NCBI RefSeq assembly: GCF_003014535.1 | Contig: NZ_PYGD01000001.1 | Span: forward strand, 1,488,001 to 1,552,000 | DNA: 64,000 nt | Direction of reading: 5' to 3' | Source: Taibaiella chishuiensis | GTDB lineage: Bacteria > Bacteroidota > Bacteroidia > Chitinophagales > Chitinophagaceae | Part shown: in pieces, positions 32,135 through 62,665 of the stretch | Layout of the letters: every line of letters starts with the position of its first letter | Numbering within the stretch: position 1 is the stretch's first letter | Made by a program: the position numbers and the translations under genes | Notes under the pieces: generated by a model | Database searches by the model: none | What the model saw: the letters and a program-made list of their open reading frames with translations, nothing else | Told to the model about the DNA's origin: nothing

Positions 32135-32184
32135 CAAAACTATTTTAAGGCAGCGCCATCGCCTATAATCTTTTTGCTATGTAT
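32135..32184 (-). promoter_or_regulatory. Boxed promoter A: 23-bp box plus -7 element
   Basis: The box at 32162-32184 reads ATACATAGC-N5-GATTATAGG on the minus strand. After exactly 19 bases comes TAGTTTTG (32135-32142), a perfect -7 element. The start codon of the SBBP protein is about 60 bases further on. Confidence 0.8.
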
Positions 32185-32321
32185 TTAATATTGTAATGTC
32201 TATCTGTTTTATTTTTAGATTAGTAGGCTGTTTGTGATACGCATTGGTAACATTAAAATAATGTATAAGGCAGGTGTATTATGCTGCAGGAGCGGGGTGT
32301 AGGACAGGCGGCATATACCCA

Positions 32322-32354
32322 TAAAAAAAGAGGCTGCCCTACAGGGGCAGCCTC
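32322..32354 (-). terminator. Terminator after the 988-aa T9SS protein gene
   Basis: A 10-bp stem (GAGGCTGCCC 32330-32339 with GGGCAGCCTC 32345-32354) followed by seven T on the minus strand. Confidence 0.85.
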
Positions 32355-32379
32355 CGTAAAAGGGGGCAAAGTATCGTGC

Positions 32380-35346
32380 TTAGTGCTTAACGAATTTGTC
32401 AGCTTTCAGCAGGGCTGAGTTATCAGCATTGTAAACCTGGATCAGGTACATGCCGCTAACCAGGCTGCTTACGTCTACGCTCTTAACGTTGTTGCGCTCG
32501 ATCAGTTTTTTACCGTCGATGCTCAGGATCACCACGTTAACCTGCTCAGCAGCTTTAACGTTCAGGGTGTTCTTAGCAGGGTTAGGATACAGTTCAACTT
32601 GGGCAGCAGCGAAAGCGTTTACACCAGTGTTACCGCTGATGATCGCGTTACCGGTACCGATTACGCTGAAAGAGTTGATCTGCAGACCGTTGGTAGTAGC
32701 ACCATTGTAACCGAATACGGCGAAATCAACACCGGCAGGAGTTACGCTGATAGCAGAAGGCAGAGTGAAGACAACTTCGTTGTGGCTGTAACCGCAATCG
32801 TCGGCTTCAACGTCAACAGGAGTAGATACAGTCCACAGAGATGAACCTACAGCTTTGGCAGCCAGGTATAATTTGTAAGTACCAGCGCCAGTACCACGTG
32901 GAGTAACGGTGATCGCGGTAGCGTTGAAGGCAGCGCCTGTAGCAGCTACGCGGGTAACGATAGAACCATTGGTAGTCTGGTCAACAGCAGTAGTGGTGTT
33001 GGTCAGGCCTGAAATACCACCGTTTCCGCAAGGTGTAGTGCTACCCCAGTTAGCTAAAGTCAGTGCAGTAGCAGAAGTACCGTTAACACCGGCAACAGCG
33101 TATACATTGGTAGAGTTACCACCACGACCTACGTACAGGGCTTTAGTGCCAGGACGGTAAGCGATAACCGTGTCACGGGTTACACCGAAACAACCGTTAA
33201 CGTCTTTACGGTAAGTGATGATCGCATCGCCAGGGATGTTAGCAGTGATAGCACCTGAAGTTGGGTTGATAGAGATAACGCTGGTATCGTTGCTGCTCCA
33301 TGTACCACCAGTCACTGTGCTGCTCAGGGTGTAAGCAGTACCGATCAGGGCGTGACGGAAAGGAATAGCAGTGCTTGAAGCGATAGCGCCAGAGATAGTA
33401 CCGGCATTAGCAGGAGTAGGAGCAACAGTTAAACTGCTAACTGCAGAGAAGTCAGATGTACCAGAGATAGAGCAGGTAACTTTAACACGGTAGTACCTTG
33501 TACCGGCAGTAGTTAAGTTACCAGTGTTGTATACAGCACCGGTAGCGCCAGCGATATCAGCAAAGCCAGAAGTAGGGCTGAGTGAAGACTGCCATTGGTA
33601 AGTAATACCAACACCGGCAACACCACCCGTACCCAGGTTGTAGTTCAGGAAACGTGAACCAGTATCACAGATAGTAACAACAGCAGGCAGAACGCTATCA
33701 GCTGTAGTAGCTACAGTACCGGCGTTACAGTTAGCGTTAGTAGTAACGATACCGTAAACTTCCAGGGTATTCAGCTGGAAAGTACCGGTAGCAGCACCAG
33801 GAGCAAATGGGAATACAGCAACTTCGAGACTGTCTTTGATACCGTTAACGGTTGGGTTAGGGTTAGCAGTGTTGCCGGTATAGAAATCCCAAGAGTTAGC
33901 GCTTGCACCACAGTTACCGCTTACCAGAGCCTGGTCGTTGGCCTGAGCTACCCAAGGACCCCACACACCAGCGTTAGCAACGCGGTAAGCGATACGGGCT
34001 TTAGTAGCACCTGTAGAAGATACGCGTGCACGGGCGTGGATGCGGGACATATTCAGCGCCATACCAACTTCTGGTTTAACGATGTAGCTAACGCGTGCGC
34101 TGTCTTTGTTGTAAGCATTGTTAGCAACAGTAACAGTCAGGCCGCTCAGACCACCTGAACCACAAGGAGTAGTAGTACCGAAACCGGTAGCTTTCAGTTG
34201 GCTAACGATATCGTCAGGAACAGGGATAACATCAGTGCTTGTACCGTCAACACCAGCATACAGAGCCAGGGTGTTAGGCCAGATAACGTCAACGCTTACT
34301 GATTTAGAACCAACACAGCCAGTAGCCAGGTCAGTTACCTGGTAAGTAACTTCAGTGTTACCACCGAATTTACCGGTCAGGTTGCCGGAAGCGTCGATAG
34401 AAGCTACGTTAGGACGGCTGCTTAACCACAGGCCACCAGGAGTAGAGTTGGTTAAAGTCTGAACTTCGTCAACTAACATTGGAGAGTTAGCGAGTACGTT
34501 ACCGATAGCTACGGTGTTAACAGTAACCTGTACAGAGTTGGTAGAAGCAACTGGAGTACCTGGAACCGCAGCGCAGGTAGTTACTGCACGATAGTAAGCA
34601 GTAGCAGTCAGCGGAGCAGTAGTGTAGGTTGTACCGGTAGCACCTGGGATATCGGTCCAAGAGGTGTTGTTCGGTGAAGTCTGCCATTTGGTAGTGATAC
34701 CAGCACCGTTACCGTTACCGGCTACAGTCAGGGTAGTTGTGTTACCGTTACAAACAGGGTTTGTACCGGCAGATACAGTACCGCCGGCAGGAGCTGTGCT
34801 ACATGTAGTAGAAGCGCCGTCAAACACGTTCTGTGAAGTGATACGGTGTGTAGCGGTATTGTTGGTAGCGCCCAGCATCTTTACGCGGATGATCAGGTTG
34901 GTAGCGCCGTTACAAGCAGCAGGCAGGGAGATAGTCTGTGTCTGGCAAGAAGTAGTAACTGCGAAAGAACCACCTGGTACAGCTACGTCGCCGGCACCGA
35001 TGTTGTAATAAACCTGTCCGGAAGCCGGGCCAGGAGCACTTGATTTGGTATTGGTGAAGGTCATCGTGATACCGCTGTAACCACCGGCATTCAGGTTGTA
35101 CTGCCAGTAGCCGGTACCAGACTGCCAACCGGCAGCGTAGAAACCAGTACCAACGCAAGTTGAAGTTGCAGTCGAAGTCTGGGTACAAGTGAAAGAGGAA
35201 ACAGGGATGTTGATAGCGTTAGCTTCGCCTGCAATCAGTTGCAGAGCCAGCATAAACATACCGCCGGCGAACATTACCGAACGCGAAAAACGCGAAGGTT
35301 TTTTGGCTTGCGGAACAGTTGATACCGCAGTTGAGATTTGGTTCAT
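32380..35346 (-). CDS. Large T9SS type A surface protein with Ig-like domains
   Basis: The 988-aa protein has an unusually long basic n-region (about 24 residues) before the signal helix (VMFAGGMFMLALQLIAGEANA). It contains Ig-like domains (TTKWQTSPNNTSWTDIPGATG and YQWQSSLSPTSGFADIAGATG) and Big_2-like domains (SIDASGNLTGKFGG and SINPTSGAITANIPG). A beta-sandwich domain marked by GFGTTTPCGSGGLSGL and WGSTTPCGNGGISGL appears twice. A type A sorting signal ends it (QVELYPNPAKNTLNVKA). Codon choice is narrower than in its neighbours (many GTA, GGT, GCT, AAC), which suggests high expression. It may be an abundant surface or matrix protein. Confidence 0.85.
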   Translation of the reverse strand: MNQISTAVSTVPQAKKPSRFSRSVMFAGGMFMLALQLIAGEANAINIPVSSFTCTQTSTATSTCVGTGFYAAGWQSGTGYWQYNLNAGGYSGITMTFTNTKSSAPGPASGQVYYNIGAGDVAVPGGSFAVTTSCQTQTISLPAACNGATNLIIRVKMLGATNNTATHRITSQNVFDGASTTCSTAPAGGTVSAGTNPVCNGNTTTLTVAGNGNGAGITTKWQTSPNNTSWTDIPGATGTTYTTAPLTATAYYRAVTTCAAVPGTPVASTNSVQVTVNTVAIGNVLANSPMLVDEVQTLTNSTPGGLWLSSRPNVASIDASGNLTGKFGGNTEVTYQVTDLATGCVGSKSVSVDVIWPNTLALYAGVDGTSTDVIPVPDDIVSQLKATGFGTTTPCGSGGLSGLTVTVANNAYNKDSARVSYIVKPEVGMALNMSRIHARARVSSTGATKARIAYRVANAGVWGPWVAQANDQALVSGNCGASANSWDFYTGNTANPNPTVNGIKDSLEVAVFPFAPGAATGTFQLNTLEVYGIVTTNANCNAGTVATTADSVLPAVVTICDTGSRFLNYNLGTGGVAGVGITYQWQSSLSPTSGFADIAGATGAVYNTGNLTTAGTRYYRVKVTCSISGTSDFSAVSSLTVAPTPANAGTISGAIASSTAIPFRHALIGTAYTLSSTVTGGTWSSNDTSVISINPTSGAITANIPGDAIITYRKDVNGCFGVTRDTVIAYRPGTKALYVGRGGNSTNVYAVAGVNGTSATALTLANWGSTTPCGNGGISGLTNTTTAVDQTTNGSIVTRVAATGAAFNATAITVTPRGTGAGTYKLYLAAKAVGSSLWTVSTPVDVEADDCGYSHNEVVFTLPSAISVTPAGVDFAVFGYNGATTNGLQINSFSVIGTGNAIISGNTGVNAFAAAQVELYPNPAKNTLNVKAAEQVNVVILSIDGKKLIERNNVKSVDVSSLVSGMYLIQVYNADNSALLKADKFVKH

Positions 35347-35852
35347 GGAAGTTTTTTTTTGTTTTACACCATACCGATGGCGGTGAAACCATCAGTCGTT
35401 TGGATTGGATACCTGGGTCGGATACGGGTGTACTTGGGTCGGATACATTGTAAAATTAGTTCCTAAAAATGCCTTGCTCCTAATTAAAAAATTATGATGG
35501 TCCTGTTATCAGAATGAATATTCGCTTAAGGTCATGATATGAAAATATGATAGGCCAAAGCGGGCATAACCTTATGAATATTCCATGTATAACGGTACGC
35601 CCGTTACATTTTTCTGATACACCTGCAAGCGGCAGTTTTATCTTCTGTGGTTTACAAATTTTTTATAGATCCACCGGCGGTTTAAACCGGTGTAGTCGGT
35701 TAAAAAAACATGAGTTATCGTCGTTCCGGATTAAAGAGACAAACAATAATTATCTGGGTGAGTTCCAGTAGTTGGCGGGCAGCAAACTAACAAGGAATAA
35801 GGTGTTGTTTTAATCAGAAATTCGGATAACTCATGGTATCCGACCGAGATAC
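35347..35852 (-). promoter_or_regulatory. Long 5' leader of the 988-aa T9SS gene with complementary ends
   Basis: Counting from the -7 box, the leader is about 500 bases. Its first bases carry GGTCGGATAC (minus strand, 35836-35845). Two perfect complements, GTATCCGACC, lie near the start codon at 35416-35425 and 35437-35446. The 5' copy can also form a local hairpin (GTATC...GATAC). This leaves two or three mutually exclusive pairings. Confidence 0.45.
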
Positions 35853-35856
35853 GATG

Positions 35857-35905
35857 TAAAGGTAGACGGCCCCGGATTTATTCCTACAATACGTTTATTA
35901 TGTAT
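35857..35905 (-). promoter_or_regulatory. Boxed promoter F: 23-bp box plus -7 element
   Basis: The box at 35883-35905 reads ATACATAAT-N5-TATTGTAGG on the minus strand. TACCTTTA (35857-35864) follows after 18 bases. This is the most divergent of the six boxes and the one with the longest leader. Confidence 0.65.
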
Positions 35906-37377: not shown

Positions 37378-38556
37378 TTATTGCTTTACAAACTTCAGGG
37401 AAGCGCTGCCGTTATCGTCGGCATACTGCATGAAGTACAGGCCCGGTGCGAGCTGGGCAACATCAAGAGACAGGGCATTGCCGGTTCCGTTTGCTGTAGC
37501 GGCCATTACTTTCCTGCCCGTAGCGTCGGTTACCGAATAAGAAGTTTTACCCTGCAGGCCTTCTACGAAGAGGGTGTTGCGGGTAGGGTTGGGATACACG
37601 CGGATAGCGCTGCTTACCGCGTCTTTGCGCAAGGCTACGATATTAGAGTAGCTGAACCTGTTGTCCCTGTCGATCATTTTCAGGCGATACAGTGCGGTAC
37701 CGTTTACTTTAGCGTCCAGGTACGTGTACTGGTTGTTACCATTCAGGTCGTTGCCTTTAGCTTCCAGGCTGGCTACTTCGGTAAATTGCTGACCGTTGCT
37801 GCTGCGTTCTACTGCGAAGCGCGCTACATTGCTTTCCTGTGCTGTAGCCCAGTTGAGGCGGTTGCCGTTATTTTCCTGTTGGCCTTTAAAGCTCAGCAGG
37901 TGCAGTGGCAGGGCTGTACCCACTACGCCCCTGATGATCAGGCTTGGGTTTCCGGATGCGCCGTTCATGTACCAGTTGCCACCGGCAGCAGTTGCATTAT
38001 ATACCAGGAGGCGGAAGGTAACTGTAGTGCCGGCAGGTACATTGGTTAATGCGGCTTCGTTGCTCAGTGTAGTAGCGCCCTGGTTGGTACCACCGGAGCT
38101 TGTAGAGGTCGTAACCATTGAAGTGCCTATGTCGGTATAAGTTGTGCCATTGAGGCTGTACTGCCATTGCATTTCCCGTGCACCGGTATTGGACCTGCGG
38201 GTATTGAATGCGCCGATCTCGCTGAAGCTGATTGTATAACCGCTACTTGGCGTCACCGTAAACGTTACATAATCTCCGTTGGTAGCTGCGGCTGCTGCGG
38301 TTGCCGAGTTGTCGAAGCCGTTTCCACCCCAGGTATCGCCTGCTGCGTTACCTGCGCTGGCAGTGGTAACACCGGGCCCCCGGGTTAAACCGCCCACAGT
38401 AATGTTGCTTGCGGTTGTGCTGGCCGCGAAGGGGCTGACGCCAAACTGTATCTGGCCCGCAAAGTTCCATTGGCCCAGCGTTACCGCCTGGCCCCAAACC
38501 TGCTGCATGCTAACGCTGAGCAGGGCAATAATTGCAAGTAATTTTACACGTTTCAT
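37378..38556 (-). CDS. T9SS type A secreted protein
   Basis: The 392-aa protein starts at the ATG at 38556 (MKRVKLLAIIALLSVSMQQVWGQA). A 52-residue upstream extension was rejected because it lies in the leader. The N-terminal half is a beta-sandwich (TLGQWNFAGQIQFG, GDYVTFTVTPSSGYTISFSEIGAF, WQYSLNGTTYTDIGTSM). A region of the type LNWATAQESNVARFAVERSSNGQQF follows, common in T9SS cargo, and then a type A sorting signal (IRVYPNPTRNTLFVEG). The substrate is unknown. The gene has its own boxed promoter and terminator, so it is a single-gene unit. Confidence 0.85.
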   Translation of the reverse strand: MKRVKLLAIIALLSVSMQQVWGQAVTLGQWNFAGQIQFGVSPFAASTTASNITVGGLTRGPGVTTASAGNAAGDTWGGNGFDNSATAAAAATNGDYVTFTVTPSSGYTISFSEIGAFNTRRSNTGAREMQWQYSLNGTTYTDIGTSMVTTSTSSGGTNQGATTLSNEAALTNVPAGTTVTFRLLVYNATAAGGNWYMNGASGNPSLIIRGVVGTALPLHLLSFKGQQENNGNRLNWATAQESNVARFAVERSSNGQQFTEVASLEAKGNDLNGNNQYTYLDAKVNGTALYRLKMIDRDNRFSYSNIVALRKDAVSSAIRVYPNPTRNTLFVEGLQGKTSYSVTDATGRKVMAATANGTGNALSLDVAQLAPGLYFMQYADDNGSASLKFVKQ

Positions 38557-38709
38557 AAAGATCTGATTTTTTAAATTTAAAAGGTTAAACCTGGGATGAT
38601 GACTGTTTTGAGAACCGGGATAGATGTTGTTGGTGATGAACAGGAACAATCCTGTATAGTGTAGCAATGGCAATGCTATACCCGGCAACCTGAATATTTT
38701 ATTGCAGGG

Positions 38710-38759
38710 CAAAAGTAAAACGGTCCATTATCCTCACCTATAATCTGTTTGTTATGTAT
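38710..38759 (-). promoter_or_regulatory. Boxed promoter B: 23-bp box plus -7 element
   Basis: The box at 38737-38759 reads ATACATAAC-N5-GATTATAGG on the minus strand, identical to the consensus. TACTTTTG (38710-38717) follows after exactly 19 bases. The leader is about 150 bases long. Confidence 0.85.
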
Positions 38760-39032: not shown

Positions 39033-41012
39033 TTACCGTACCAGGGCAAAGTCGCCCTTCAATGTTTGTTGTTCACCTTGTAAGTTCTCCACGGTAAGGG
39101 TATAATAGTAGGTGCCCAGGTCGCATTTAACGCCGTTGTATGATCCGTCCCAACCGTCGCCTAATTGTTGCATATAGGCCCTGTTGTATATTCTTTGTCC
39201 CCAACGGTTGAAGATCGAGAAGTCAACGATCTTATGATCGCGGATAAAACGCGGCACGAAGTAGTCGTTCATGCCATCCCCGTTCGGCGAAAACGCAGTG
39301 GGGACAAATATTTCAGACGATGGCAGGATAATAATGTCCAGCTCTGCGGTGTCTTTACAATTATTTTCGCTTACCGCAGTTACGATGATACGGCTCCTGC
39401 CCTTTTTCAGGTAAGTAACCTTTTGCCCGGTCGCATGCTGGTTGGGAAACAGGGCGCCGGGTTCCCAGCTGGTCACCGTAAAGGCCTGTGCCGCGCTCGT
39501 GGTAAGGGTTACAGGTACTCCGATCTCTGCTTCCAGCGTCGAGGCCTGCAGCGACAATACAAAGTGTTCCACATTTACGCGCACCGTGGCAATGCCTTCA
39601 CAATTGAGTTCGTTCGCTGCACGGGCTACATAGACGGTCGTTTGCGCGGGACTTACGGTAATGGTTTGTTGCCCCGGTGGAAAACCGTCCCAGCTTACCG
39701 GCAGGGCAGCGGTGGCAGTAAGCGTGGTTGTTTCACCCCTGCAGATCGTCAGCTCCGGGGGGACGGTAATTTGCGGTGTCGGCAATATATGCAGGTATAC
39801 GCGGCGGTATATACTGTCGCAACCGCCCGGCGTTTTTATCGTATCGGTCACTACCTGGCTGGTCGTATAGGGCACACCTTTAAACACGATGTTCTGGCAA
39901 CCATGCAGGGTATCTCTCGTAACGCTGGTAACCACCGTTTCAATTTTGATCTGCATATAGATATAGGCGCTGTCGCAGCCCAGCGCGGCATGCAGCGTAT
40001 CCTGCACTACGGTCGATGTGGTATAGGTTACACCATTAAACGTTACCGGCTGGCAGCTGCTGATCATGCCACTTACTACTACGGGCGTAAATACCGACAG
40101 GTGCAGGTGGATAATGCTGTCGCAACCCGCGCTGGTACTAAAAGTATCGAGGTATACACCGCCAACCGTCAGCGAATCGCCGTTGAAGAAATATTTGTCG
40201 CCCTGCTCTATACAGGTATAGATGTGATTGTCGACGCCGCTCACATTGGTCAGCATACCATTAATCCAGGTCGCATTGGCCGCGCTGTTGGGCGCGCCCG
40301 GCGTTTCATCGGCCGGTGCGTTACCTACATTGTAGGCGGCGGAGAGGGTATATTGGTTATTGGTAAGGTAGTAATTTCTGGCCCCGCCGGCAACGGTCTT
40401 GCTGATAACGGCAGCCGATGCATTCAACAGGTTACCATAAGCGATCGAGTGGTGCGCGGTACCCGGCGCCGTAGGGTCTACAACGATTACAGCATCGCCG
40501 GTATTGGCCAGCCCTATTGCATTCCAGGCAGGGGAGGCAGTGTAGGCCGTGCCGGCAGGATATACATAACCGGTAGAGGAAGGGGATAAGGGTGTAGCTA
40601 CAGTACCTTCGATAAACGGCGATACGGATGGCAGCACATACACATGATCGTTGTTGGCGTCCGTAGGATCATCGGGCATCGTGATCACCGGGTTTTTATC
40701 GCCGAGATTGTAGAGCAGGATTATGGAACCGTAAGGAACACAAGACCAGTTAGGGCTGTTGGAAAAGCGGATATGCCCCGGGGCTATACCCTGGCCGCCT
40801 GCTGCGCCGTACCAGCCGTTATTGTCGTCTATTATCCATCCGCGAAGGTCGGCACAGCTATCGCCGCTGCAGTTCCTTTGTCCGACTACCACGAGTTCAA
40901 TATACTCCTGGGCGCCGTTGGCGCCCTGCGAAAATTCATTAATGATCAGCTGTTGCGCTTCGCTAAAAAGGCTGCAAAGGGACAGGAACAGCAATAAAAA
41001 CCGGAATTTCAT
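39033..41012 (-). CDS. Lamin-tail-domain protein, T9SS type B
   Basis: The 659-aa protein has a signal peptide (to about SEAQQ) and an N-terminal lamin-tail (LTD) domain at about residues 20-210 (LIINEFSQGANGAQEYIELVVVG, CADLRGWIIDDNNGWYG). Three modules ending in GCDS follow. A further domain contains TICRGETTTLTATAALPVSWDGF. It ends in a gliding-motility-associated type B signal (IFVPTAFSPNGDGMNDYFVP, FSIFNRWGQRIY). LTD domains are frequent in extracellular nucleases and may bind nucleic acid or surfaces. It is a paralogue of the protein at 47867-50275 and follows a small gene (41054-41446) by 41 bases. Confidence 0.85.
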   Translation of the reverse strand: MKFRFLLLFLSLCSLFSEAQQLIINEFSQGANGAQEYIELVVVGQRNCSGDSCADLRGWIIDDNNGWYGAAGGQGIAPGHIRFSNSPNWSCVPYGSIILLYNLGDKNPVITMPDDPTDANNDHVYVLPSVSPFIEGTVATPLSPSSTGYVYPAGTAYTASPAWNAIGLANTGDAVIVVDPTAPGTAHHSIAYGNLLNASAAVISKTVAGGARNYYLTNNQYTLSAAYNVGNAPADETPGAPNSAANATWINGMLTNVSGVDNHIYTCIEQGDKYFFNGDSLTVGGVYLDTFSTSAGCDSIIHLHLSVFTPVVVSGMISSCQPVTFNGVTYTTSTVVQDTLHAALGCDSAYIYMQIKIETVVTSVTRDTLHGCQNIVFKGVPYTTSQVVTDTIKTPGGCDSIYRRVYLHILPTPQITVPPELTICRGETTTLTATAALPVSWDGFPPGQQTITVSPAQTTVYVARAANELNCEGIATVRVNVEHFVLSLQASTLEAEIGVPVTLTTSAAQAFTVTSWEPGALFPNQHATGQKVTYLKKGRSRIIVTAVSENNCKDTAELDIIILPSSEIFVPTAFSPNGDGMNDYFVPRFIRDHKIVDFSIFNRWGQRIYNRAYMQQLGDGWDGSYNGVKCDLGTYYYTLTVENLQGEQQTLKGDFALVR

Positions 41013-41053: not shown

Positions 41054-41446
41054 CTATTGATTAGCTGCAGGTTTCAGTTTAATAAAAGTTGATTTTTTAT
41101 CTGTGATATTGGTATTGCTGATCTCGAGTGAATTCTTCGTCGATTTATAAGAGCTGATCAATACTTTGGTACGCACAAACGGGAAATGTTTATGACCGTT
41201 TTTCCAGTTCCTGGCATTCCGCGAATTGGCTTTGGCATAGTGTTGTACTTTGTTGTATAATTCAACGAGCTCGCGTATTTCCCGGATCTTGTTCATGTAC
41301 TCTCCGTATATCTTCTTCAGGGATTCAAGGTTGTCTTTAAAGGCAATGAGCACATTTTCGCTTTCTTTGATTTTTTTATACTCTTCGATATTGCTCATTA
41401 TAGATTCACTTAATCCTTTGTGAGTTGCAGGTGATATGTTTGTCAT
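41054..41446 (-). CDS. Small soluble, coiled-coil-like protein
   Basis: The 130-aa protein starts MTNISPATHKGLSESIMSNIEEYKKIKE at the ATG at 41446, and MSNIEE at 41398 is an alternative start. It has no signal peptide. A charged helical stretch (NVLIAFKDNLESLKKIYGEYMNKIREIRELVELYNKVQ, about residues 25-65) suggests a coiled coil, and the C-terminal half is basic (RNARNWKNGHKHFPFVRTK). It is the first gene of the unit read from boxed promoter C and precedes the lamin-tail gene. I do not recognise it. A regulatory or chaperone role is only a guess. Confidence 0.6.
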   Translation of the reverse strand: MTNISPATHKGLSESIMSNIEEYKKIKESENVLIAFKDNLESLKKIYGEYMNKIREIRELVELYNKVQHYAKANSRNARNWKNGHKHFPFVRTKVLISSYKSTKNSLEISNTNITDKKSTFIKLKPAANQ

Positions 41447-53419: not shown

Positions 53420-54061
53420 TTATTGGGCAAGTCCTGTACGCAGGGCATGCCCGACAAGCGCCGCGGTACTGTTCACTTCCAGCTTCAACGATATATTGAA
53501 ATGATATTGTTTAACGGTATTGGTGCTGATGCCCAGTTCCTTGGCAATATCTTTTTTACTTTTACCCAAAGCGATGAGCTGCAGCACTTCTTTCTCCCGC
53601 GGACTTAAAGTAGTCTTTACCGAAGCCTCCCGGGTGCGCCGGTCGCCAAGGTTTGTGATCTTGTCTTTAAGGGTAGGTTCGATATAGATTTCGTTATGGT
53701 ATACCGCGAGTACAGCCTTCTTCCATTCCTCTGCGGTTGCATGTTTCATAATATAGCCCGATGCTCCTAACCGTAACATGGTGTTGGCGCTGATCGCACT
53801 GTCCAGTACACTGATCGCAAGTATTTTGATGCCCGGGTGCGTCTTCTGCAGGTTACGGGCTACCAGGTCGCCGTTCTGGTCCGGCAATAATATATCCAGG
53901 AGCAGTACATCTATTTCCAGGCCTTTTTCAAGTTCTTCCTGGAAGGATGTGGCGTTATACCAGGAATGCGTCACTGTAATTGTCTCATCATCCGTAAACA
54001 TTCTCTTAATACCGTCGACGACTACCGGGTGGTCGTCGAGTATGGCCATCTTTATTTTCAT
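53420..54061 (-). CDS. NarL/FixJ-family response regulator
   Basis: The 213-aa protein starts at the ATG at 54061 (MKIKMAILDDHPVVVDG), and a TTG two codons upstream is not needed. The receiver domain has the acidic pair DD at 8-9, the phospho-acceptor Asp in VLLLDILLPDQNG, and Lys in SGYIMKHA. The C-terminal LuxR-type HTH covers about residues 148-205 (LSPREKEVLQLIALGKSKKDIAKELGISTNTVKQYHFNISLKL). It follows the histidine kinase gene in the same operon. It is a candidate for binding the 23-bp boxes, because NarL-type regulators often activate from sites near -40. Confidence 0.92.
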   Translation of the reverse strand: MKIKMAILDDHPVVVDGIKRMFTDDETITVTHSWYNATSFQEELEKGLEIDVLLLDILLPDQNGDLVARNLQKTHPGIKILAISVLDSAISANTMLRLGASGYIMKHATAEEWKKAVLAVYHNEIYIEPTLKDKITNLGDRRTREASVKTTLSPREKEVLQLIALGKSKKDIAKELGISTNTVKQYHFNISLKLEVNSTAALVGHALRTGLAQ

Positions 54062-54140
54062 CTTCAATACTTTTTGGTTTCAATTGGCAATGCGTTAAAA
54101 AACAGGATCACGAAAAATAACACCGGGTCGTTTTGTTATT

Positions 54141-54881
54141 TTAAGCCATCGTGTGTTGATAGGGTATAGAAATATGAATGATCGTTCCTTTATCCACAAT
54201 AGACTCCACGCTCATGATGCCTTCCAGTGAGGCTACCCTCCAGTTGATGTTTTTTAACCCTGTGCCTTTCGATTTCGATAATTTATTGATGCCTTTCCCG
54301 TTGTCTTCCACAATCATCTTAACATGTCCGTCGAGTAATACAATATTGATCGCCGCAATAGTAGCTGAAGAGTGTTTAATTATATTCTGAACCAGTTCCT
54401 GTACGATCCTGAAAATATTCAGGGATATATCATTATTCACCTCCGACCAGTTCCCGTTAATGTAGAGTTGTATCTCCAGCTTCTTTTCCCTGTTGATCTG
54501 CTGGCAAAAATTATTGATCGCTTCTTCGAGACCCTGCAATACAAGCGTTTCGGGAATCAGGTTATGCACGGTATTGCGCAGCTCCCGCGTGGTGCTGTTC
54601 AGCATCGTTATGATCTGGTCCAGATCCCTGTCTTCCCCGGCAGCGCAATGTTTGGATTTATACTGTTCCAGTTGCCGGTTCATGGCAAGCAGCATACTGC
54701 CTATACCATCATGTAGCTCCCGGCCCAACCTGCTGCGCTCTTTCTGTTCCCCTTCAAACAAGGTCTTCGCCCTAAGCAATTCCTGTTTGTTTTTAATGCC
54801 CGAAGTTTTGATACTGTTTAAAAAGCATCTGATTGTAGAATACACGGTCCTTGTTTTTTTAAGTTGATTGGCTACTGGCAT
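54141..54881 (-). CDS. Soluble NarX-type sensor histidine kinase
   Basis: The 246-aa protein starts at the ATG at 54881 (MPVANQLKKTRTVYST). A GTG at 54920 lies upstream of the promoter box. A short N-terminal helix is followed by a HisKA_3 domain with the phospho-acceptor His in RLGRELHDGIGSMLLAMN. The HATPase domain has the N box IVQELVQNIIKHSSA, VEDNGKGINK and GTGLKNINWRVASLEG. No membrane segment or sensory domain is visible, so it must sense in the cytoplasm or through another protein. It is 79 bases upstream of its cognate response regulator gene. Confidence 0.9.
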   Translation of the reverse strand: MPVANQLKKTRTVYSTIRCFLNSIKTSGIKNKQELLRAKTLFEGEQKERSRLGRELHDGIGSMLLAMNRQLEQYKSKHCAAGEDRDLDQIITMLNSTTRELRNTVHNLIPETLVLQGLEEAINNFCQQINREKKLEIQLYINGNWSEVNNDISLNIFRIVQELVQNIIKHSSATIAAINIVLLDGHVKMIVEDNGKGINKLSKSKGTGLKNINWRVASLEGIMSVESIVDKGTIIHISIPYQHTMA

Positions 54882-54889
54882 TACAGCTG

Positions 54890-54897
54890 CGAAACTA
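54890..54897 (-). promoter_or_regulatory. Candidate -7 box of the kinase-regulator operon
   Basis: On the minus strand TAGTTTCG is one base off TAnnTTTG and lies eight bases before the kinase ATG. There is no 23-bp box here, so the pair is not part of the boxed regulon by promoter type. Confidence 0.45.
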
Positions 54898-54923
54898 AAC
54901 CTGTTAAATAAATTTAACACGGA

Positions 54924-55215: not shown

Positions 55216-58200
55216 TTACCGCACCAGGGTGCAGTTACCGCGCATATTGATCGGTTCGCCATTGGCGCATTTACCCGTAATCCGGTAATGATAGTCTGCT
55301 ATATCTGCCGGCTGACCGTTATTGATCGTGCCATCCCAACCTTTGCTGATATTATACGAGGTAAATACGGTGGCGCCCCAGCGGTTATAGATCTGCAGCA
55401 CATACTCCGAGGGATGGCCCTGGCTTTCCGGTTTGAATATATCGTTGAGCCCGTCGCCATTAGGACTGAATGCATTGGGCATCCAGATGGCGCAACAGGC
55501 CTGCGCTTCGATACTGATCGCTGCTGAATTGCTACAGCCGTTTTCATCGGTGCCGGTAACAGAAACAGCATTGTCGCCTCGGTACAGTACCGCCGTGAAA
55601 CTGCCGTCGCTATTGGTTTCTACTTCGTTATAAGTCCAGGTGTAGTTTTGTGCGCCCGATGCAACCAGTAATACCGAATCGCCGATACAGTGGTTGCCGG
55701 GTTGATCCTGTGCGATGCTCAATACCGGGTGCGGGTGCACGACAATCTCGAGCGATACCACAGAGTCGCAACCATAGCGGCTCCGGTAGTACAGGGGATA
55801 AGTGCCGGCAGCGGTATACACCTGGCCGTTAAACAGGAATTCCTCGCCCGTACACATTTCATGCGTTACATGCCCCTGTTCCGGCTGATGCACCCTGATG
55901 TTGATAATGCGTACCACACTGTCGCAGCCCGATAAGGCGCTTAAGGTATCACGGAGTGTGGTGTTTTGGGTATAGGTACGCGTTTCGAATACAACGGCGC
56001 TACAGCCGGCAGTATCGACCTGGAGCAGCACAGGCAATGCATGGGGTTTGATGTGTACAACCCGGTACAGGCTGTCGCAGCCGCCGGCAGTCAGGAAGGT
56101 ATCCAGCAACGTTGCCGGTGTGGTATACTCGGTGCCTTCAAACCATACACTGCCACATGCAGCGGTATCGAGGCTAAGCTGCGCGGGCTGAGCGCTGATC
56201 TGCAGGTGCAGGGTTACGGTACTGTCGCAGCCGCCGGTGTTCTGGAACACATGGGTATAAGTGCCGGCCAGGGTCAGCGTTTGGTTGCCGAAGCTATAGC
56301 TTTCGCCATAACAACGTGCTACACTGATGCTGGCGGTATGTACCGGTTTTACAGTAAGCAATAAGGTAACGAGGCTGTCGCAGCCGTTACCGGCCGTAAA
56401 TGTATGGTTATAGGTGCCTGCCAGGGTCAGCGACTGGCCGGCCCAGTTATAGCTTGTGCCGGCGCATATCGATGCAGGGAAAGTGTCGATAATCGCGGCG
56501 CCCACATTGAGTGTAAGCGTAACTGTACTGTCGCAGTGGTGCACATCCTGGAATACATGTGTATAGATGCCGGAGTTGAACAGTGTCTGATTGCCGAATA
56601 CATAACCGACCCCGAAGCAGGTCTGCCTGGTTATCGCATTTTGCTGCACCGGTCTTACAAAAAGATGCAGGGTTACGGTGCTGTCGCAACCGGATGCTGC
56701 TGTAAATATATGGTTGTAAACTCCCGTGGCGGTAAAGGACTGGCCACCCCAGGCGTAGGTAACGCCTGCACAGGCGGTATCTGCAAACTGGTGGGTTATG
56801 GCCGGTCTTACAAACAGGTGCAGGGTTACGGTACTGTCGCAGCCTGCAGTTGTGGTAAAGGCTTTGTTGTAATTGCCGGTGGTGGTATAGGTTTGCCCGG
56901 CCCAGGTATAGGTACCGCCATTGCAAAGTGTGTCTGCAAAACTATGGGTGATGACCGGCTTTACGAATAAGTTCAGGGTAACGATGCTGTCGCAACCTGC
57001 AGCCGTGGTAAAGTTCTTGTTGTAGTTGCCCGTGGTGGTATAACCCTGTCCGGCCCAGGTATAAGTACCGCCGCTGCAAACGCTGTCTGCGAAACTATGG
57101 GTGATGACGGGTTTTACGAATAAATGCAGGGTAACGATGCTGTCGCAACCTGCAGCCGTGGTAAAGTTCTTGTTGTAGTTGCCCGTGGTGGTATAACCCT
57201 GTCCGGCCCAGGTATAAGTACCGCCGCTGCAAACGCTGTCTGCGAAACTATGGGTGATGGCGGGTTTTACGAACAAATGGAGGGTGACGGTACTATCGCA
57301 ACCGGCAGCGGTGGTAAAGCTCTTGTTGTAGTTGCCTGTAGCCGTGTAAGTTTGTCCTGCCCAAGTATAGGTACCGCCGCTGCAAACACTGTCTGCGAAA
57401 CTATGAATGATGGCGGGTTTTACGAATAAATGCAGGGTAACGGTACTGTCGCAACCTGCAGCGGTGGTAAAGGCTTTGTTGTAGTTGCCCGTGGCCGTGT
57501 AAGTTTGGCCGGCCCAGGTATAGGTGCCGCCGCTGCAAACACTGTCGGCGAAATTATGGGTGATGGCGGGTTTTACGAATAAATGCAGGGTAACGGTACT
57601 GTCGCAGCCTGCAGCGGTCGTAGTAAAGCTCTTGTTGTAGTTGCCCGTGGCCGTGTAAGTTTGTCCTGCCCAGGTATAGGTGCTGCCGCTGCAAACGCTG
57701 TCTGCGAAACTATGGATGATGGCGGGTTTTACGAATAAATGGAGGGTAACGGTACTGTCGCAACCTGCAGCCGTGGTAAAGGCTTTGTTGTAGTTGCCCG
57801 TAGTGGTATAACCCTGTCCTGCCCACGTATAGGTAGGGCCGCTGCAAATCGTATCCGCAAAACTGTAGGTGATGACCGGCTTTACAAACAGGTGCAGGGT
57901 AACGCTGCTGTCGCAACCGTTGGCAGCGGTAAACGTATGATTATAGTTGCCGCTTGCATTGTAGGTCTGTCCGCCCCAGGTATAGGTAGGGCCGCTGCAT
58001 ATCGTATCTGCAAAGCTATAGGTAATGGCGGGCCGGATAAACAGGTGCAGGGTAACGCTGCTGTCGCAGCCATTGGCTGCCGTGAAGGTATGGTTATACA
58101 GGCCTGTTGCCGTATAACTTTGCCCGGCCCAGGTATAGGTGGCGCCGTTACATGCCGTATCGGAAACGTTGTTGCTGATAGCCGGCCTTACAAACAGGTG

Positions 58201-59343
58201 CAGGGTTACGCTGCTGTCGCAACCGGATTGGGCGCTGAAACTGTGGTTGTATGTTCCGCTTGCGGTATACGATTGTCCGCCCCAGGCATAAGTGCCGTTG
58301 TTGCAAATGGTATCGGCAAAGCTGTACGTGATGGCTGGTCTTACAAACAGGTTGAGGTTTACGGTGCTGTCGCAGCCGTTGGCGCCGGTAAAGGTTGCGG
58401 TATAGGCCCCGCTTGCTGTCAGGGTTTGCGTACCCAGCAGGTAGCTGCCGCCGTTGCAGATGGTATCGTTCTTAATAACGGTAACCGGTTGCAGTATGGC
58501 TATGCCGAGTGCATTGCTGCTTACCGGGCTGGCAGTAATACAGGGCGCATTCGATACCATACTACAGGTTACGATATCGGTTGACGACAAGCTGTTATTG
58601 CTGTAGGTATTGGTGTTGCTGCCTACTGGGCCCCCATTCAGGAACCAGGTGTAAACGGGCGCGCTGCCACCGTTGACGGGTGTAGCGGTAAATGTTACAT
58701 TGGTACCCGCACATACCGGCCCGGCAGGTGCGGCATTGATCGATACTGCGGGTGGGGTGGGTTGCCCTACATCACCGGTGATCCGCAGGTTAGCCGTTTG
58801 GCAGGTGCCTGTCGAAGCGGCGGAGCCGTAGTAATACACCCGTACCTTCAACATGCCGGAGCATAGGTACGCCGGTGTGGTTAAGTTCCAGGTATTGTTG
58901 GTAAAGTTGCCGCAGCCGGCATTATTGGGGGCATAGTCGGCGCCATTGTCGATCCAGGTAGTGCCGCCGTCCAGGCTGTAGGCCAGGCGGGCCTTGGCAG
59001 GTCCCTGGCCACTGCGGCGCATCGATACGGAGATGCTGTTGATCTGTATGTAATAACCCGGTGCAGGGGTGATATTGACATTCAGGGCGGGGCTGGCCGC
59101 ATTGGCCGGGTTATAGGTGGCATATGCGGGTGCGGTTGTAAGGCCGCTGATGCCGCCACCCGCCGCGCATACGGTATTGGAGCCCCAGCTGCCTACCGTA
59201 ACCAGGTTAGTGGCGGTAAGGTTGGGCGCAAGGCTGTTATAGGCGCCGTTGGTGGCAGTAGTATAGTTATAGATTACCTGTTGCGCCTGCGCCGGTAATA
59301 CGAATAACAGCAGTATGCTGAAAAGCTGTAGAAAACGGTTCAT
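55216..59343 (-). CDS. Giant repeat adhesin-like protein with 18 GCDS modules, T9SS type B
   Basis: The 1,375-aa protein has a signal peptide (to about LPAQAQ). An N-terminal beta-sandwich follows (VGSWGSNTVCAAGGGISGL, RRSGQGPAKARLAYSLDGGTTW), similar to the domain repeated in the 32380-35346 protein, then an Ig-like domain. Eighteen modules of about 51 residues each carry a cysteine near DTxC and end in GCDSxVTLHLFV, fit to form one disulfide each. A type B signal ends the protein (WMPNAFSPNGDGLNDIFKP). It is probably a long surface stalk or adhesin. It follows the anchor-L gene by 27 bases in the sigma-factor operon. Confidence 0.85.
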   Translation of the reverse strand: MNRFLQLFSILLLFVLPAQAQQVIYNYTTATNGAYNSLAPNLTATNLVTVGSWGSNTVCAAGGGISGLTTAPAYATYNPANAASPALNVNITPAPGYYIQINSISVSMRRSGQGPAKARLAYSLDGGTTWIDNGADYAPNNAGCGNFTNNTWNLTTPAYLCSGMLKVRVYYYGSAASTGTCQTANLRITGDVGQPTPPAVSINAAPAGPVCAGTNVTFTATPVNGGSAPVYTWFLNGGPVGSNTNTYSNNSLSSTDIVTCSMVSNAPCITASPVSSNALGIAILQPVTVIKNDTICNGGSYLLGTQTLTASGAYTATFTGANGCDSTVNLNLFVRPAITYSFADTICNNGTYAWGGQSYTASGTYNHSFSAQSGCDSSVTLHLFVRPAISNNVSDTACNGATYTWAGQSYTATGLYNHTFTAANGCDSSVTLHLFIRPAITYSFADTICSGPTYTWGGQTYNASGNYNHTFTAANGCDSSVTLHLFVKPVITYSFADTICSGPTYTWAGQGYTTTGNYNKAFTTAAGCDSTVTLHLFVKPAIIHSFADSVCSGSTYTWAGQTYTATGNYNKSFTTTAAGCDSTVTLHLFVKPAITHNFADSVCSGGTYTWAGQTYTATGNYNKAFTTAAGCDSTVTLHLFVKPAIIHSFADSVCSGGTYTWAGQTYTATGNYNKSFTTAAGCDSTVTLHLFVKPAITHSFADSVCSGGTYTWAGQGYTTTGNYNKNFTTAAGCDSIVTLHLFVKPVITHSFADSVCSGGTYTWAGQGYTTTGNYNKNFTTAAGCDSIVTLNLFVKPVITHSFADTLCNGGTYTWAGQTYTTTGNYNKAFTTTAGCDSTVTLHLFVRPAITHQFADTACAGVTYAWGGQSFTATGVYNHIFTAASGCDSTVTLHLFVRPVQQNAITRQTCFGVGYVFGNQTLFNSGIYTHVFQDVHHCDSTVTLTLNVGAAIIDTFPASICAGTSYNWAGQSLTLAGTYNHTFTAGNGCDSLVTLLLTVKPVHTASISVARCYGESYSFGNQTLTLAGTYTHVFQNTGGCDSTVTLHLQISAQPAQLSLDTAACGSVWFEGTEYTTPATLLDTFLTAGGCDSLYRVVHIKPHALPVLLQVDTAGCSAVVFETRTYTQNTTLRDTLSALSGCDSVVRIINIRVHQPEQGHVTHEMCTGEEFLFNGQVYTAAGTYPLYYRSRYGCDSVVSLEIVVHPHPVLSIAQDQPGNHCIGDSVLLVASGAQNYTWTYNEVETNSDGSFTAVLYRGDNAVSVTGTDENGCSNSAAISIEAQACCAIWMPNAFSPNGDGLNDIFKPESQGHPSEYVLQIYNRWGATVFTSYNISKGWDGTINNGQPADIADYHYRITGKCANGEPINMRGNCTLVR
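56180..58470. repeat. In-gene 153-bp tandem repeat array
   Basis: The anchor CTGTCGCA (one copy CTATCGCA) recurs at 56222, 56375, 56528, 56681, 56834, 56987, 57140, 57293, 57446, 57599, 57755, 57908, 58061, 58214 and 58367. The spacing is always 153 bp except for one extra codon between 57599 and 57755. The units at about 56937-57089 and 57090-57242 are nearly identical, which points to recent duplication or gene conversion. Confidence 0.93.
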
Positions 59344-59370: not shown

Positions 59371-61542
59371 TTATTTGACCACGAGCACTTCTCCTCTTTT
59401 ATGCAGTAAGGTGCCGTCTTTACAGAGGTAGGTTACATGATAGAAGTAGTTGCCGAGGTCGACCACTTTACCGTTGAATATGCCGTTCCAGGGCAGGCCG
59501 CCGTCTTCCAGGTATACCATCTGTCCCCAGCGGTTAAAGATCTCGACCCGGGTAATACGGGTGCCGTCGTGGACCTTCATTTCGAAGTAGTCGTTCAGGC
59601 CGTCCTGGTTGGGCGTAAAGGCTGTGGGGATAAAAATGAAATCGTCGCAGCAGCGTTCCACGGTAACGGTAAACCGGCCGCGTTCGCTTTCGCAGTCGCC
59701 GTACGACTGGCTTACATAAAACTGCTGTACCTGCTCTGTTGCGGTATTAATCTGGGGCGCGCCTTCCAGCGGCATACCGCCAAGGGCATCTTTATACCAT
59801 TTCAGGTTACTGCCGGTTACCGGTATTTTTTTGATCATTTCATTCACGCACACTTTAAGCGGCTCGATCGCGGGCGGTAGCGGGAAGGATACGATATTGA
59901 TCTGTACCGAATCGCTTACAGACCCGCAGATGCCGCTGCTTACGGTAAAATAGTAGGTGCCGGATTGTGCAACGGAGGGGTCGGGTATTTCGAGTATTTT
60001 GTCGGTGACCGTACCATGCGCCGAGGTCCACTGGTAAGTAAAGGCGCTGTTGTCCGGTGCGATCATCGGGGTGATCATGATCGGGGTATGTTCGCAAACA
60101 TTCACGTCTTCTCCCGCATCTACATAAAGCGGTTTGGGCATGATATTAAGCTGCAGGGCGCCGGTCAGCGTATCGCAGCCGCTGCCTGCTGCAGCATAGG
60201 CTTTCAATACATAAGTGGTGCTGGTGGCCGGGTTGGCCAGCGGCGTCAGTATGCCGGTATTGTTGAGGCCTATTGCCGGCGTCCAGTTAAAGGTAAGGCC
60301 CGTGCTGCTGTTGCCTTCTATTTGTACATAGTTGCCTTCGCATACTGTCGTGTCGTTGGTCAGCAGGCTCATCTGTGGGGCATCCAGCAACAGTAGGGTG
60401 GCTGAGTCGATCACGTTAAGACCGCCGCCGCTGCAGTTAGCAGGCGCCAGTAAGCGGACTATGAGATCGCGGGTGCCGGCCGGCGGTGTTGGCAGCCCGG
60501 TTACCGCAACGGTTACCGAGGTGGCATTGGCCGGGATGGTAACTGTGCCGGGTAACGAAGTGTAGTCGGTGCCGTTTACAGCGGTACCGCCAACCTGGTA
60601 GTTCAGTACCTGCGGGCTGGGTTTGGCTACCGAACGGCTAAAGGTAAAGCTGCCGGGCAGGCAACCTTTGTACAGCGCCTTGCCGCCGGGCAGGGTTACC
60701 GGGCCCTGTGCCGCAACGGAGAAGGTGGTAGACTGCAGGCTGCCGGCTTTTATAAATACGCCGGAGTCGTACAGGCCGTTCTGGGCATCGGCTATGGTGA
60801 GTTTCAGGTGGTAAGTATCGCAGGGGTTAACGGAGTGAGCTGCGGTAAGCACCGTGGTAAAGCCCCGGTAGCCTACGGTTGTGCCGCCGGCGTTATTGAT
60901 GTAATAAGCGGTAAAGGGCGATCCCGCACCCATAGCGGTACAGTTGGGCAGAGAGCCGTAAGTGCCGGGTATGCCGTTGTTGATCGAATTGACGGTAACC
61001 GGGATATTGGTGCCCGGTACCCTGGCCATATTATAGGTACCCGCTATGCCGGGCCCTGAAATGAAAAATGCGAAGGCGTCGTTATACGGGCCGCAAATTG
61101 AATTAATATACTCTTCCGAACCGAATACATATTCAAATTTAACCGTGTCGCCCTTGGGCACCAGGTCGAATTGCAGCATACAGGCATCTCTCGTGGTCGA
61201 TGCGCCGGAAAGTGCCGCCAGTGCCGGGTCTCCGTTGGTGTTGTTATTATTGCTGGTGAGGGGTGGTTCTGCAGCGGCTACGGCCATGGCATTACCCGTG
61301 GTCAGTACGATACCGCTGTCGAGGCCCAGGTTGCTGGAGGTAACGGTAAAAACACCGTTGGCCGCCGCAGCACAGGTAAGCGTTGCGTTGGTAATGGTAA
61401 CGCCGCTGCCGGCAAGCCGCTGCGCCAATACGGTGGCGTTCTGGTTGGCGGTTATCGATATCTGGCCGTAAGCAACGGCGCCGGATATAAAAAGCTGCAG
61501 CAGGAAAATGGATTTAAGAACAGTGTACAGGTATCGGTTCAT
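59371..61542 (-). CDS. Choice-of-anchor-L protein, T9SS type B
   Basis: The 723-aa protein has a signal peptide (to about GAVAYGQ). A choice-of-anchor-L domain follows at about residues 30-270 (GLDSGIVLTTGNAMAVA, KGDTVKFEYVFGSEEYINSICGPYNDAFAFFISGPG). A Calx-beta-like segment is next (GGTAVNGTDYTSLPGTVTIPANATSVTVAVTGLP). Ig/PKD-type domains follow, and then a type B signal (FIPTAFTPNQDGLNDYFEM, VEIFNRWGQMVYL). Such proteins are surface-exposed and often adhesive. It lies 89 bases after the sigma-factor gene and 27 before the giant repeat gene, in one probable operon. Confidence 0.85.
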   Translation of the reverse strand: MNRYLYTVLKSIFLLQLFISGAVAYGQISITANQNATVLAQRLAGSGVTITNATLTCAAAANGVFTVTSSNLGLDSGIVLTTGNAMAVAAAEPPLTSNNNNTNGDPALAALSGASTTRDACMLQFDLVPKGDTVKFEYVFGSEEYINSICGPYNDAFAFFISGPGIAGTYNMARVPGTNIPVTVNSINNGIPGTYGSLPNCTAMGAGSPFTAYYINNAGGTTVGYRGFTTVLTAAHSVNPCDTYHLKLTIADAQNGLYDSGVFIKAGSLQSTTFSVAAQGPVTLPGGKALYKGCLPGSFTFSRSVAKPSPQVLNYQVGGTAVNGTDYTSLPGTVTIPANATSVTVAVTGLPTPPAGTRDLIVRLLAPANCSGGGLNVIDSATLLLLDAPQMSLLTNDTTVCEGNYVQIEGNSSTGLTFNWTPAIGLNNTGILTPLANPATSTTYVLKAYAAAGSGCDTLTGALQLNIMPKPLYVDAGEDVNVCEHTPIMITPMIAPDNSAFTYQWTSAHGTVTDKILEIPDPSVAQSGTYYFTVSSGICGSVSDSVQINIVSFPLPPAIEPLKVCVNEMIKKIPVTGSNLKWYKDALGGMPLEGAPQINTATEQVQQFYVSQSYGDCESERGRFTVTVERCCDDFIFIPTAFTPNQDGLNDYFEMKVHDGTRITRVEIFNRWGQMVYLEDGGLPWNGIFNGKVVDLGNYFYHVTYLCKDGTLLHKRGEVLVVK

Positions 61543-61631
61543 AATTGAGATTTGACCGGGTATATTGCGGTGTAAAATGATTTTATCGGCCCCTGGTTAC
61601 GGGTATGTTATAGATGGATGGCGGAACGGGG

Positions 61632-62504
61632 TCAGGTGGTGTGCAGGTAGGGGCGTAACAGGTCAAGCTGGTTCAGGCTTCTGATCTTCTCAATGCCATT
61701 GTCTTTAATTTGCCGTACACGTTCGCGGGATAAGTCAAAATTGCGGGCAATGTCTTCCAGCGAGCAGGCTTCTTCCCGCCCGATGCCGAAATACATTTTA
61801 ATGATCGTGCTCTGCCGCTCGGACAAAATGCTGAGGGTGCTGGTGATGTCGCGGTTCAGGGATTCGGTATGGGCAAGCTGCCCGTCGGTACGGCCTGCAT
61901 TGTGGTTGGGGAGCAGGTCGGCAAGCGTGGTATCTTCTTCTTCGCCCACCGGCGCATCGATACTCAGCTGTTTAAAATTGGTAGCCAGCAGGGCCTCCAC
62001 TTCTGCGACCGGTATGCCCAGGTAGTCGGCGATCTCGGGGGCCGAAGGGGCACGTTCGTATTGCTGCTCCAACTGGTTGAATACCCGGGCGATCTTATTC
62101 TTTAAAGTTACTTTGTTGAGCGGTAGTCTTACAAACCGGCTATGCTCTGCCAGGGCCTGCAGTATCGACTGGCGGATCCACCACACCGCGTAGGAAATGA
62201 ATTTGAATCCTTTGGTTTCGTCGTAACGGCTGGCAGCGGTTACCAGACCCAGGTTGCCTTCGTTGATGAGGTCACTGAGACCCAGGCCCTGGTTTTGGTA
62301 TTGTTTGGCCACCGACACCACGAACCGCAGGTTGGCCACAATCAGTTGCCGCGTCGCTTCCGCATCTCCTTCTTTGATCTTCCGGGCAAGCTGTTCCTCC
62401 TCTTCGGCAGACAGTAAGCTGGTTTTGGCTATTTCCTGGAGATATTTTTCCAAAGAATGGCTCTCGCGGATAGTAATGGATTTCGAAATCTTCAACTGGC
62501 GCAT
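61632..62504 (-). CDS. RpoD-like sigma-70 factor, probably a paralogue of the primary sigma factor
   Basis: The 290-aa factor has the short Bacteroidota primary-type layout. Region 1.2 is MRQLKISKSITIRESHSLEKYLQEIA, region 2 is NLRFVVSVAKQYQNQGLGLSDLINEGNLGLVTAASRYDETKGFKFISYAVWWIRQSI, and region 3 and region 4 (LSERQSTIIKMYFGIGREEACSLEDIARNFDLSRERVRQIKDNGI) follow. Several positions differ from the primary factor as I remember it (LSDLI, LVTAA, EHSRF, LADLLPNHNAGRTDG, and an acidic or neutral end to the recognition helix). I therefore read it as a second, specialised factor. It heads an operon with two T9SS type B genes, and its promoter carries the shared box. Confidence 0.85.
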   Translation of the reverse strand: MRQLKISKSITIRESHSLEKYLQEIAKTSLLSAEEEEQLARKIKEGDAEATRQLIVANLRFVVSVAKQYQNQGLGLSDLINEGNLGLVTAASRYDETKGFKFISYAVWWIRQSILQALAEHSRFVRLPLNKVTLKNKIARVFNQLEQQYERAPSAPEIADYLGIPVAEVEALLATNFKQLSIDAPVGEEEDTTLADLLPNHNAGRTDGQLAHTESLNRDITSTLSILSERQSTIIKMYFGIGREEACSLEDIARNFDLSRERVRQIKDNGIEKIRSLNQLDLLRPYLHTT

Positions 62505-62615
62505 AACACACTGATATTTTATGGCCCCTTGCGGGGAAATGGTCCGGGTGGGCGGCCTGCCGGGGCTGAATCTTTAAGAACGGCTGCCGCTACCTGTAAG
62601 GCTCATTTACGGGTG

Positions 62616-62665
62616 TAAAATTACTGGCCTCCGCCGGGCGTCACTATAATCCATATGTTATGTAT
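62616..62665 (-). promoter_or_regulatory. Boxed promoter E: 23-bp box plus -7 element before the sigma gene
   Basis: The box at 62643-62665 reads ATACATAAC-N5-GATTATAGT on the minus strand. TAATTTTA (62616-62623), one base off TAnnTTTG, follows after exactly 19 bases. The leader to the sigma ATG is about 107 bases. Between 62666 and 62976 I see no further feature. Confidence 0.8.

Follow-up and report, generated by a model that had tools for sequence, protein, structure and literature searches.

A 23-bp promoter box of a type IX secretion cargo island in Taibaiella and its candidate reader, a LuxR/NarL-type response regulator

Six promoters in a 64,000-nt stretch of the Taibaiella chishuiensis genome (contig NZ_PYGD01000001.1, positions 1,488,001 to 1,552,000; the whole stretch is hereafter called the window) share a 23-bp box, ATACATAAC-N5-GATTATAGG, with 0-3 mismatches each. 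They lie in an island rich in genes for surface proteins secreted by the type IX secretion system (T9SS). The six boxes are genuine and far above chance expectation: dinucleotide shuffles of the window gave a mean of 0.05 matches, and none of 100 shuffles reached six. Judging from sequence comparisons, we take the box to be the operator at which a dedicated activator acts, most probably the LuxR/NarL-type response regulator encoded in the island and driven by the adjacent histidine kinase, with a probability of about 0.7. Transcription starts and start codons are predictions throughout.

The box, its units and its conservation in the genus

The sigma operon has its box at 62643-62665 on the minus strand, followed by the -7 element TAATTTTA (62616-62623, N19). 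It opens with the gene of an RpoD-like sigma factor (61632-62504, minus strand), a paralog confined to the genus and a predicted target of the box, and continues with two genes (59371-61542 and 55216-59343) whose products carry T9SS sorting domains. On the plus strand, the box at 42091-42113, with TAATTTCG at 42133-42140 (N19), stands before a gene run (42278-53383) encoding a choice-of-anchor J T9SS cargo protein, a DUF5689 protein, a carboxypeptidase-regulatory-like domain protein, a CHU_C cargo protein, a T9SS cargo protein and an Exo_endo_phos_3 protein. The remaining boxes are on the minus strand. The one at 41753-41775 (CATTTTTG at 41726-41733, N19) precedes an open reading frame (ORF) without a Pfam match (41054-41533) and a CHU_C cargo gene (39033-41012), and the one at 38737-38759, an exact match to the consensus (TACTTTTG at 38710-38717, N19), precedes a T9SS cargo gene (37378-38712). 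The box at 32162-32184 (TAGTTTTG at 32135-32142, N19) belongs to a gene with DUF7948 and a T9SS sorting domain (27918-32135), whose true start codon probably lies inside the listed ORF. Finally, the box at 35883-35905 (TACCTTTA at 35857-35864, N18) precedes a putative small-RNA gene.

The coordinates, strands and spacings given in a first-pass annotation (N19 in five of six, N18 in one) were thus borne out, as was its statement that the first 27 kb of the window are free of the box; no match occurs there at ≤3 mismatches, and a single 4-mismatch match, at 3317, has no -7 element. The description of the -7 element as TAnnTTTG fits strictly at two boxes (32162 and 38737), while TACCTTTA, CATTTTTG, TAATTTCG and TAATTTTA each miss one of the six letters. 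The same annotation counted five secreted-protein units and one sigma unit; the sigma assignment stands, and the 35883 unit opens with the putative small RNA instead.

Across the whole genome (G000, 5.84 Mb), 11 matches were found at ≤3 mismatches, compared with 5 for the reversed pattern. The proposed scan for the box together with a -7 element 18 or 19 bp downstream (matching in at least 5 of 6 letters) retained seven of the 11, namely the six in the window and one elsewhere (G000:C2:328809), which has a perfect -7 element and lies upstream of the gene for a protein of 383 aa that carries a T9SS sorting domain. The surface regulon is therefore mostly clustered, as had been suggested, with a seventh true site on another contig. 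The other four matches, all with 3 mismatches and without a -7 element, were set aside as chance. A plus-strand match at 40562 (4 mismatches, TACCTTCG at 19 bp), antisense inside ORF 39033-41012, lacks the right half of the box and was for that reason attributed to chance too.

The genus sample comprised the own genome and three sister species (G001-G003), of which G001 and G003 are close relatives. The same box was found before the sigma ortholog (63-67% identity) in all three sister genomes, with TA[AC]TTTTG exactly 19 bp after it, and the scan of related genomes confirmed that box, spacing and -7 element are retained before orthologous genes. Between G000 and G002, six of the seven sites are at orthologous genes: the sigma gene, the 42278 operon, 27918, the 35883 unit (L067 6552 in G002, 4 mismatches, N18 in both), 41054 and the dispersed cargo gene (383/410 aa). 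No ortholog of 37378 was seen in the G002 stretches examined. Little of the 42278 operon was encountered in the 40 kb examined in G001 and G003; its CHU_C gene (801 aa) is present in both, with a box of its own. Furthermore, relaxed scans showed that the 39033-41012 ortholog of these two genomes, on another contig, is preceded by a variant box followed after 19 bp by TACCTTTG. As the boxes stay with the orthologs at rearranged loci, membership of the regulon is conserved despite changed gene order.

Outside the genus, we searched for a composite motif (box, N19 and TANTTTTG, ≤3 mismatches) in 394 family genomes drawn from a larger group. It occurred at 15 sites in the four genus genomes and once each in four of the 390 others, and the reversed control gave four matches overall. 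By this search, the box element is genus-specific within the 394-genome sample. The four matches in other genera were rejected as chance, one (G152) lying inside a long ORF and the other three having 3 mismatches each and no common gene context. The box alone, at ≤2 mismatches, gave 22 matches in 19 of 95 non-genus genomes, none of them followed after 18 or 19 bp by a -7 element with 5 or more of the 6 letters. A 2-mismatch match within the genus (G002:C3:95976) was also rejected, as it lacks a -7 element and lies inside an ORF.

The islands differ in some neighbouring genes. Between its 27918 and 32380 orthologs, G002 has a pectate-lyase-like gene of 1145 aa (L066 18622 onward and L067), which is absent from the window island. 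Upstream of the sigma promoter, G001 has a gene for a 433-aa protein with a weak Exo_endo_phos match (L060 17410-18711), with G003 having it at the same place; the window has instead a different gene, Exo_endo_phos_3 (52325-53383).

Promoter anatomy and the candidate readers

Seventeen promoters were aligned (N19 in 15, N18 in 2). We left out the 4-mismatch matches at 3317 and 40562 of the window and at L060 3760, L064 8803, L065 11135, L066 6629 and L067 11688, together with a 2-mismatch match at L068 9976; L067 6552 was retained as the ortholog of the 35883 site, and the two later finds, the variant sites in G001 and G003, remain outside the alignment. The refined consensus is ATACATAACnAwCGGATTATAGG-N19-TAMTTTTG. 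At the position of the TTTG of a -33 element the aligned promoters mostly have TAGG, so that this element is weak or absent. If the -7 element spans -12 to -5, as described for the -7 box of Flavobacterium psychrophilum (PMC9723704), the box covers -54 to -32 with its centre near -43. The promoters then have the layout of class II-type activation, a conserved site near -42 at a fixed distance from the -7 element, although the absolute position leans on the assignment in PMC9723704. This supports the earlier proposal that the box replaces the -33 element at an activator-type position.

The promoter extent assumed in the first-pass annotation was too short, as conserved elements reach much further upstream. 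Seven columns upstream of the box are kept in at least 15 of the 17 promoters, compared with a mean of 0.002 under random row shifts (no more than 1 in any of 3000 trials). When each ortholog group is represented by a single promoter (n = 8), four upstream columns are invariant against 0.03 expected, a number reached in none of 5000 row-shift controls. The most distinct element is ATTAT-N5-TGTTAYCAAAT, which begins 77-78 bp upstream of the box and looks like a reversed box (12 of 17 rows scoring at least 12; 4 of 1000 column shuffles were as good). It matches in all 16 letters (ATTATGATTCTGTTACCAAAT, 62722-62742, minus strand) at the sigma promoter and in 14 of 16 at the promoters of the 42278 run (42014-42034, plus strand) and of 27918 (32242-32262, minus strand). 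Among the eight independent promoters, four reach at least 14 of 16 and the others 10-12; a score of 14 was attained by 4 of 3400 shuffled upstream regions. The stretch between this element and the box has no significant likeness to the box.

Among the proteins scanned, the DNA-binding proteins common to the four islands are the RpoD-like sigma factor and the LuxR/NarL-type response regulator (53420-54067, minus strand), the proposed reader of the box, which the first-pass annotation did not name. The regulator consists of a receiver (PF00072, 4.8e-17) and a GerE/LuxR helix-turn-helix (HTH) domain (PF00196, 3.4e-17), its best relatives of solved structure are VraR and NarL, and it scores under the cut-off of all 25 NCBIfam models listed. 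Orthologs at E ≤ 1e-55 are confined to the four genus genomes among the 394, and the next relatives show 38-42% identity. The gene adjoins a box promoter in all three sister islands as well. Across the genus, the GerE (DNA-binding) domain is 88-93% identical and the receiver 67-75%, and such a conserved DNA-binding domain fits an unchanged operator. Its partner kinase (54141-54920, minus strand; HisKA_3 and HATPase_c) is short and reduced to the kinase core, with no recognised sensor domain and, by eye and without a predictor, no membrane segment. The kinase orthologs of G001 and G003 are shorter still (215-216 aa). In G000, a terminator-looking hairpin, identified by eye, lies between the kinase gene and the sigma operon.

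Given these features, the kinase would drive the regulator, presumably by phosphorylation, and the regulator would bind the box centred near -43 in place of a -33 element and recruit RNA polymerase to the -7 element fixed 19 bp downstream, activating rather than repressing. The same regulator probably also binds the second element, roughly 80 bp before the box, which resembles the box reversed. Predicted targets would be T9SS-secreted surface proteins, the RpoD-like sigma factor (a feed-forward arrangement) and a small RNA that may pair with one cargo mRNA at its 5' end.

Several points weigh against this proposal. A simple dimer site should be a dyad, and the box is not a significant one; the ATAA-N8-TTAT noted in the first pass is present, but the symmetry of the 17-site matrix is at chance level, with 956 of 2000 column shuffles doing as well. 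Just half of the eight independent promoters have a strong upstream element (14-16 of 16). Regulator, kinase, sigma factor and box co-occur in all four genus genomes, hence distribution alone cannot separate the regulator from the sigma factor as reader. Moreover, only selected ORFs were scanned for DNA-binding domains, which leaves room for another regulator, even one encoded elsewhere.

Alternatively, the box might be an extended -33 element read directly by the island sigma factor, which would need no activator to transcribe its own gene and the rest of the regulon. The presence of the box before the sigma gene in all four genomes accords with such autoregulation, and so does a specialised -7 element. 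Its position 4 is T in all 15 N19 sites of the aligned set, compared with 21 of 75 genome-wide matches to TTTG-N19-TANNTTTG, about a quarter of which (19 in the reversed control) may be chance and among which TACCTTTG is commonest (19). The difference (Fisher, 1e-7; 6e-6 for 15 of 17 when the two later variants are added) shrinks to about 1e-4 with seven independent groups, as orthologous sites are not independent. In region 2.4, moreover, H or N replaces the Q of the RpoD motif AEQSR in all four island sigmas. On the other hand, the stretch RERVRQIKD of region 4.2, which makes the -35 contacts in E. coli sigma-70, is identical to that of RpoD, and a 23-bp box with further upstream elements far exceeds what a sigma factor recognises. 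The island sigma has the full set of RpoD-like regions (1.2, 2, 3 and 4) and is thus not an extracytoplasmic function (ECF) sigma. In the tree, the four island sigmas fall on one side of a branch (100/99) and the RpoD of the same genomes elsewhere, consistent with an RpoD-like alternative sigma separate from the housekeeping one, with branches of 1.57 (G000) and 1.3 (G002) against 0.09 and 0.05 for their RpoD; the position of the island sigmas is unsure because of these long branches. A box that stays fixed while the sigma changes fast and keeps its recognition helix points to the regulator as the likely reader, and direct reading by the sigma factor seems improbable to us.

Some other activator, be it an island protein with no recognised domain or the product of a gene outside the island, is a similarly poor candidate: the selective ORF scan and the missing dyad would suit it, but the regulator gene always adjoins a box promoter and shares the box's restriction to the genus, and no further scanned island protein apart from the sigma factor has a DNA-binding domain.

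More speculatively, the response regulator and the sigma factor might act as a two-layer switch. The sensor-less kinase and the regulator, acting at three evenly spaced elements (centres near -43, -83 and -123), would activate the private RpoD paralog; the paralog would prefer the specialised TAMTTTTG -7 elements of these promoters and so close a positive loop, with all-or-none expression of the surface cargo, and the co-activated small RNA, through two tandem target sites, would tune one cargo mRNA. We regard this full scheme as rather unlikely.

Apart from the box promoters, TTTG-N19-TATCTTTG is letter-identical at G000:C8:721-751, C11:377-407 and C20:8340-8370, near contig ends, perhaps reflecting repeated ribosomal operons.

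A putative small RNA at the 35883 promoter

About 500 bp, partly conserved in G002, separate the 35883 promoter from the next protein gene, a T9SS cargo gene at 32380-35346 (minus strand) and the probable target of the small RNA. Directly at the predicted start lies GTATCTCGGTCGGATAC, a 5' hairpin, followed by CATGAGTTATC; 105 nt on come GATAACTCATG and seven T. CATGAGTTATC and GATAACTCATG would form the closing stem of a putative small RNA of about 150 nt (35702-35852, minus strand). Its fold beats 200 of 200 shuffles in both G000 and G002 (z -3.8 and -5.3, respectively), and the stem differs between the two genomes by one U-A to C-G pair change. Within it, GGTCGGATAC is complementary in every letter to two GTATCCGACC sites (35446-35437 and 35425-35416, together 35416-35446, minus strand), which lie 21 nt apart in both genomes at the predicted 5' end of the 32380-35346 mRNA. 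The mismatch-free GTATCCGACC pair was found nowhere else in the four genomes; at 3 mismatches G001 has one pair, with four matches for the reversed control. The arrangement of small RNA and target is absent from G001 and G003, and no Rfam match was obtained up to E 1 within 27-64 kb of the window.

We predict that the 35883 unit encodes a putative box-controlled small RNA that would act on the next gene, 32380. As a prediction in two genomes, it has its own promoter, a terminator-like end, a conserved structure and conserved mRNA complementarity, with two exact 10-nt sites in both. Because 70-100 nt separate the target sites from the downstream start codon of 32380, an effect on mRNA stability would be likelier than a direct block of ribosomes. 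A calculation of the duplex between small RNA and leader ignores folding and was uninformative. Single GTATCCGACC sites number 16 in G000 (17 for the reversed control) and 6 in G002 (2 for the control), three of each being at the small-RNA locus; given this near-control frequency, no further targets are claimed.

On a different reading, GTATC..GATAC and GTATCCGACC would be DNA operators at transcription starts, and the stem-loop a plain attenuator or terminator in a long 32380 leader. Both sequences follow similar TAnnTTTAC boxes, hence both would be at +1. Nevertheless, the exact antisense match, with two mismatch-free copies 21 nt apart in both genomes, favours RNA, as does the closing stem kept through the U-A to C-G change (in two genomes only), and we find DNA operators a possible but less convincing explanation.

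Two further sequences of this unit were observed on the minus strand. At 35750-35800, within the putative small RNA, the stretch GCCAACTRCTGGAACTCACCC matches the 5' hairpin in conservation, perhaps marking another functional part of the molecule. At 35451-35490, the predicted 32380 promoter reads CATAAT-N4-TTAATTAGG-like, 20 bp, TAATTTTA, likewise in G002, a possible degenerate box with altered spacing.

Relation to known systems

A literature search of limited depth found no description of the box or the regulon. LuxR-type activators bind dyad boxes of about 20 bp near -42.5, which replace the -35 element at a fixed distance to the -10/-7 element. The box described here is alike in length, in the replaced element, in the fixed spacing and in the LuxR-class HTH of its candidate reader. 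It differs from lux boxes, which are clear dyads, in having no dyad and in being accompanied by further conserved upstream elements.

The nearest known circuit appears to be PorXY-SigP of Porphyromonas gingivalis (PMC4800418), in which a two-component system and a sigma factor likewise govern T9SS-linked genes in the Bacteroidetes. According to that account, SigP, an ECF sigma, has PorX as an interaction partner and binds the promoters of genes for T9SS components; direct regulation by PorX is disputed (PMC5005315). Compared with the circuit as described there, the sigma factor here is RpoD-like, the predicted targets are mostly cargo genes and the LuxR/NarL-type regulator has a DNA-binding domain of its own. 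Non-standard Bacteroidetes promoters have also been reported as SM1-SM6 of F. psychrophilum (PMC9723704), where SM5 and SM6 cover gliding and T9SS genes, and as PM2 of Bacteroides thetaiotaomicron (PMC7366714). In contrast to the motifs given in those reports, the -7 element here remains TAnnTTTG-like and the -33 region alone is replaced. The putative small RNA recalls GibS of B. thetaiotaomicron (PMC7366714), which is likewise intergenic, measures about 145 nt, has a conserved seed at its 5' end as well as a terminator, and also represses an adjacent operon. The seed of GibS is described as unstructured and pairs around start codons, whereas here it would lie in the 5' hairpin, with the sites 70-100 nt before the start.

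The control of T9SS cargo is poorly known, the route described in the papers found being PorXY-SigP in P. gingivalis. The Taibaiella island may offer a compact, testable circuit of regulator, operator, targets, sigma factor and small RNA, in which the consensus predicts transcription starts almost to the base. Should the sigma factor also act back on these promoters, the circuit would be a case of a two-component regulon that has taken over a duplicated primary sigma factor.
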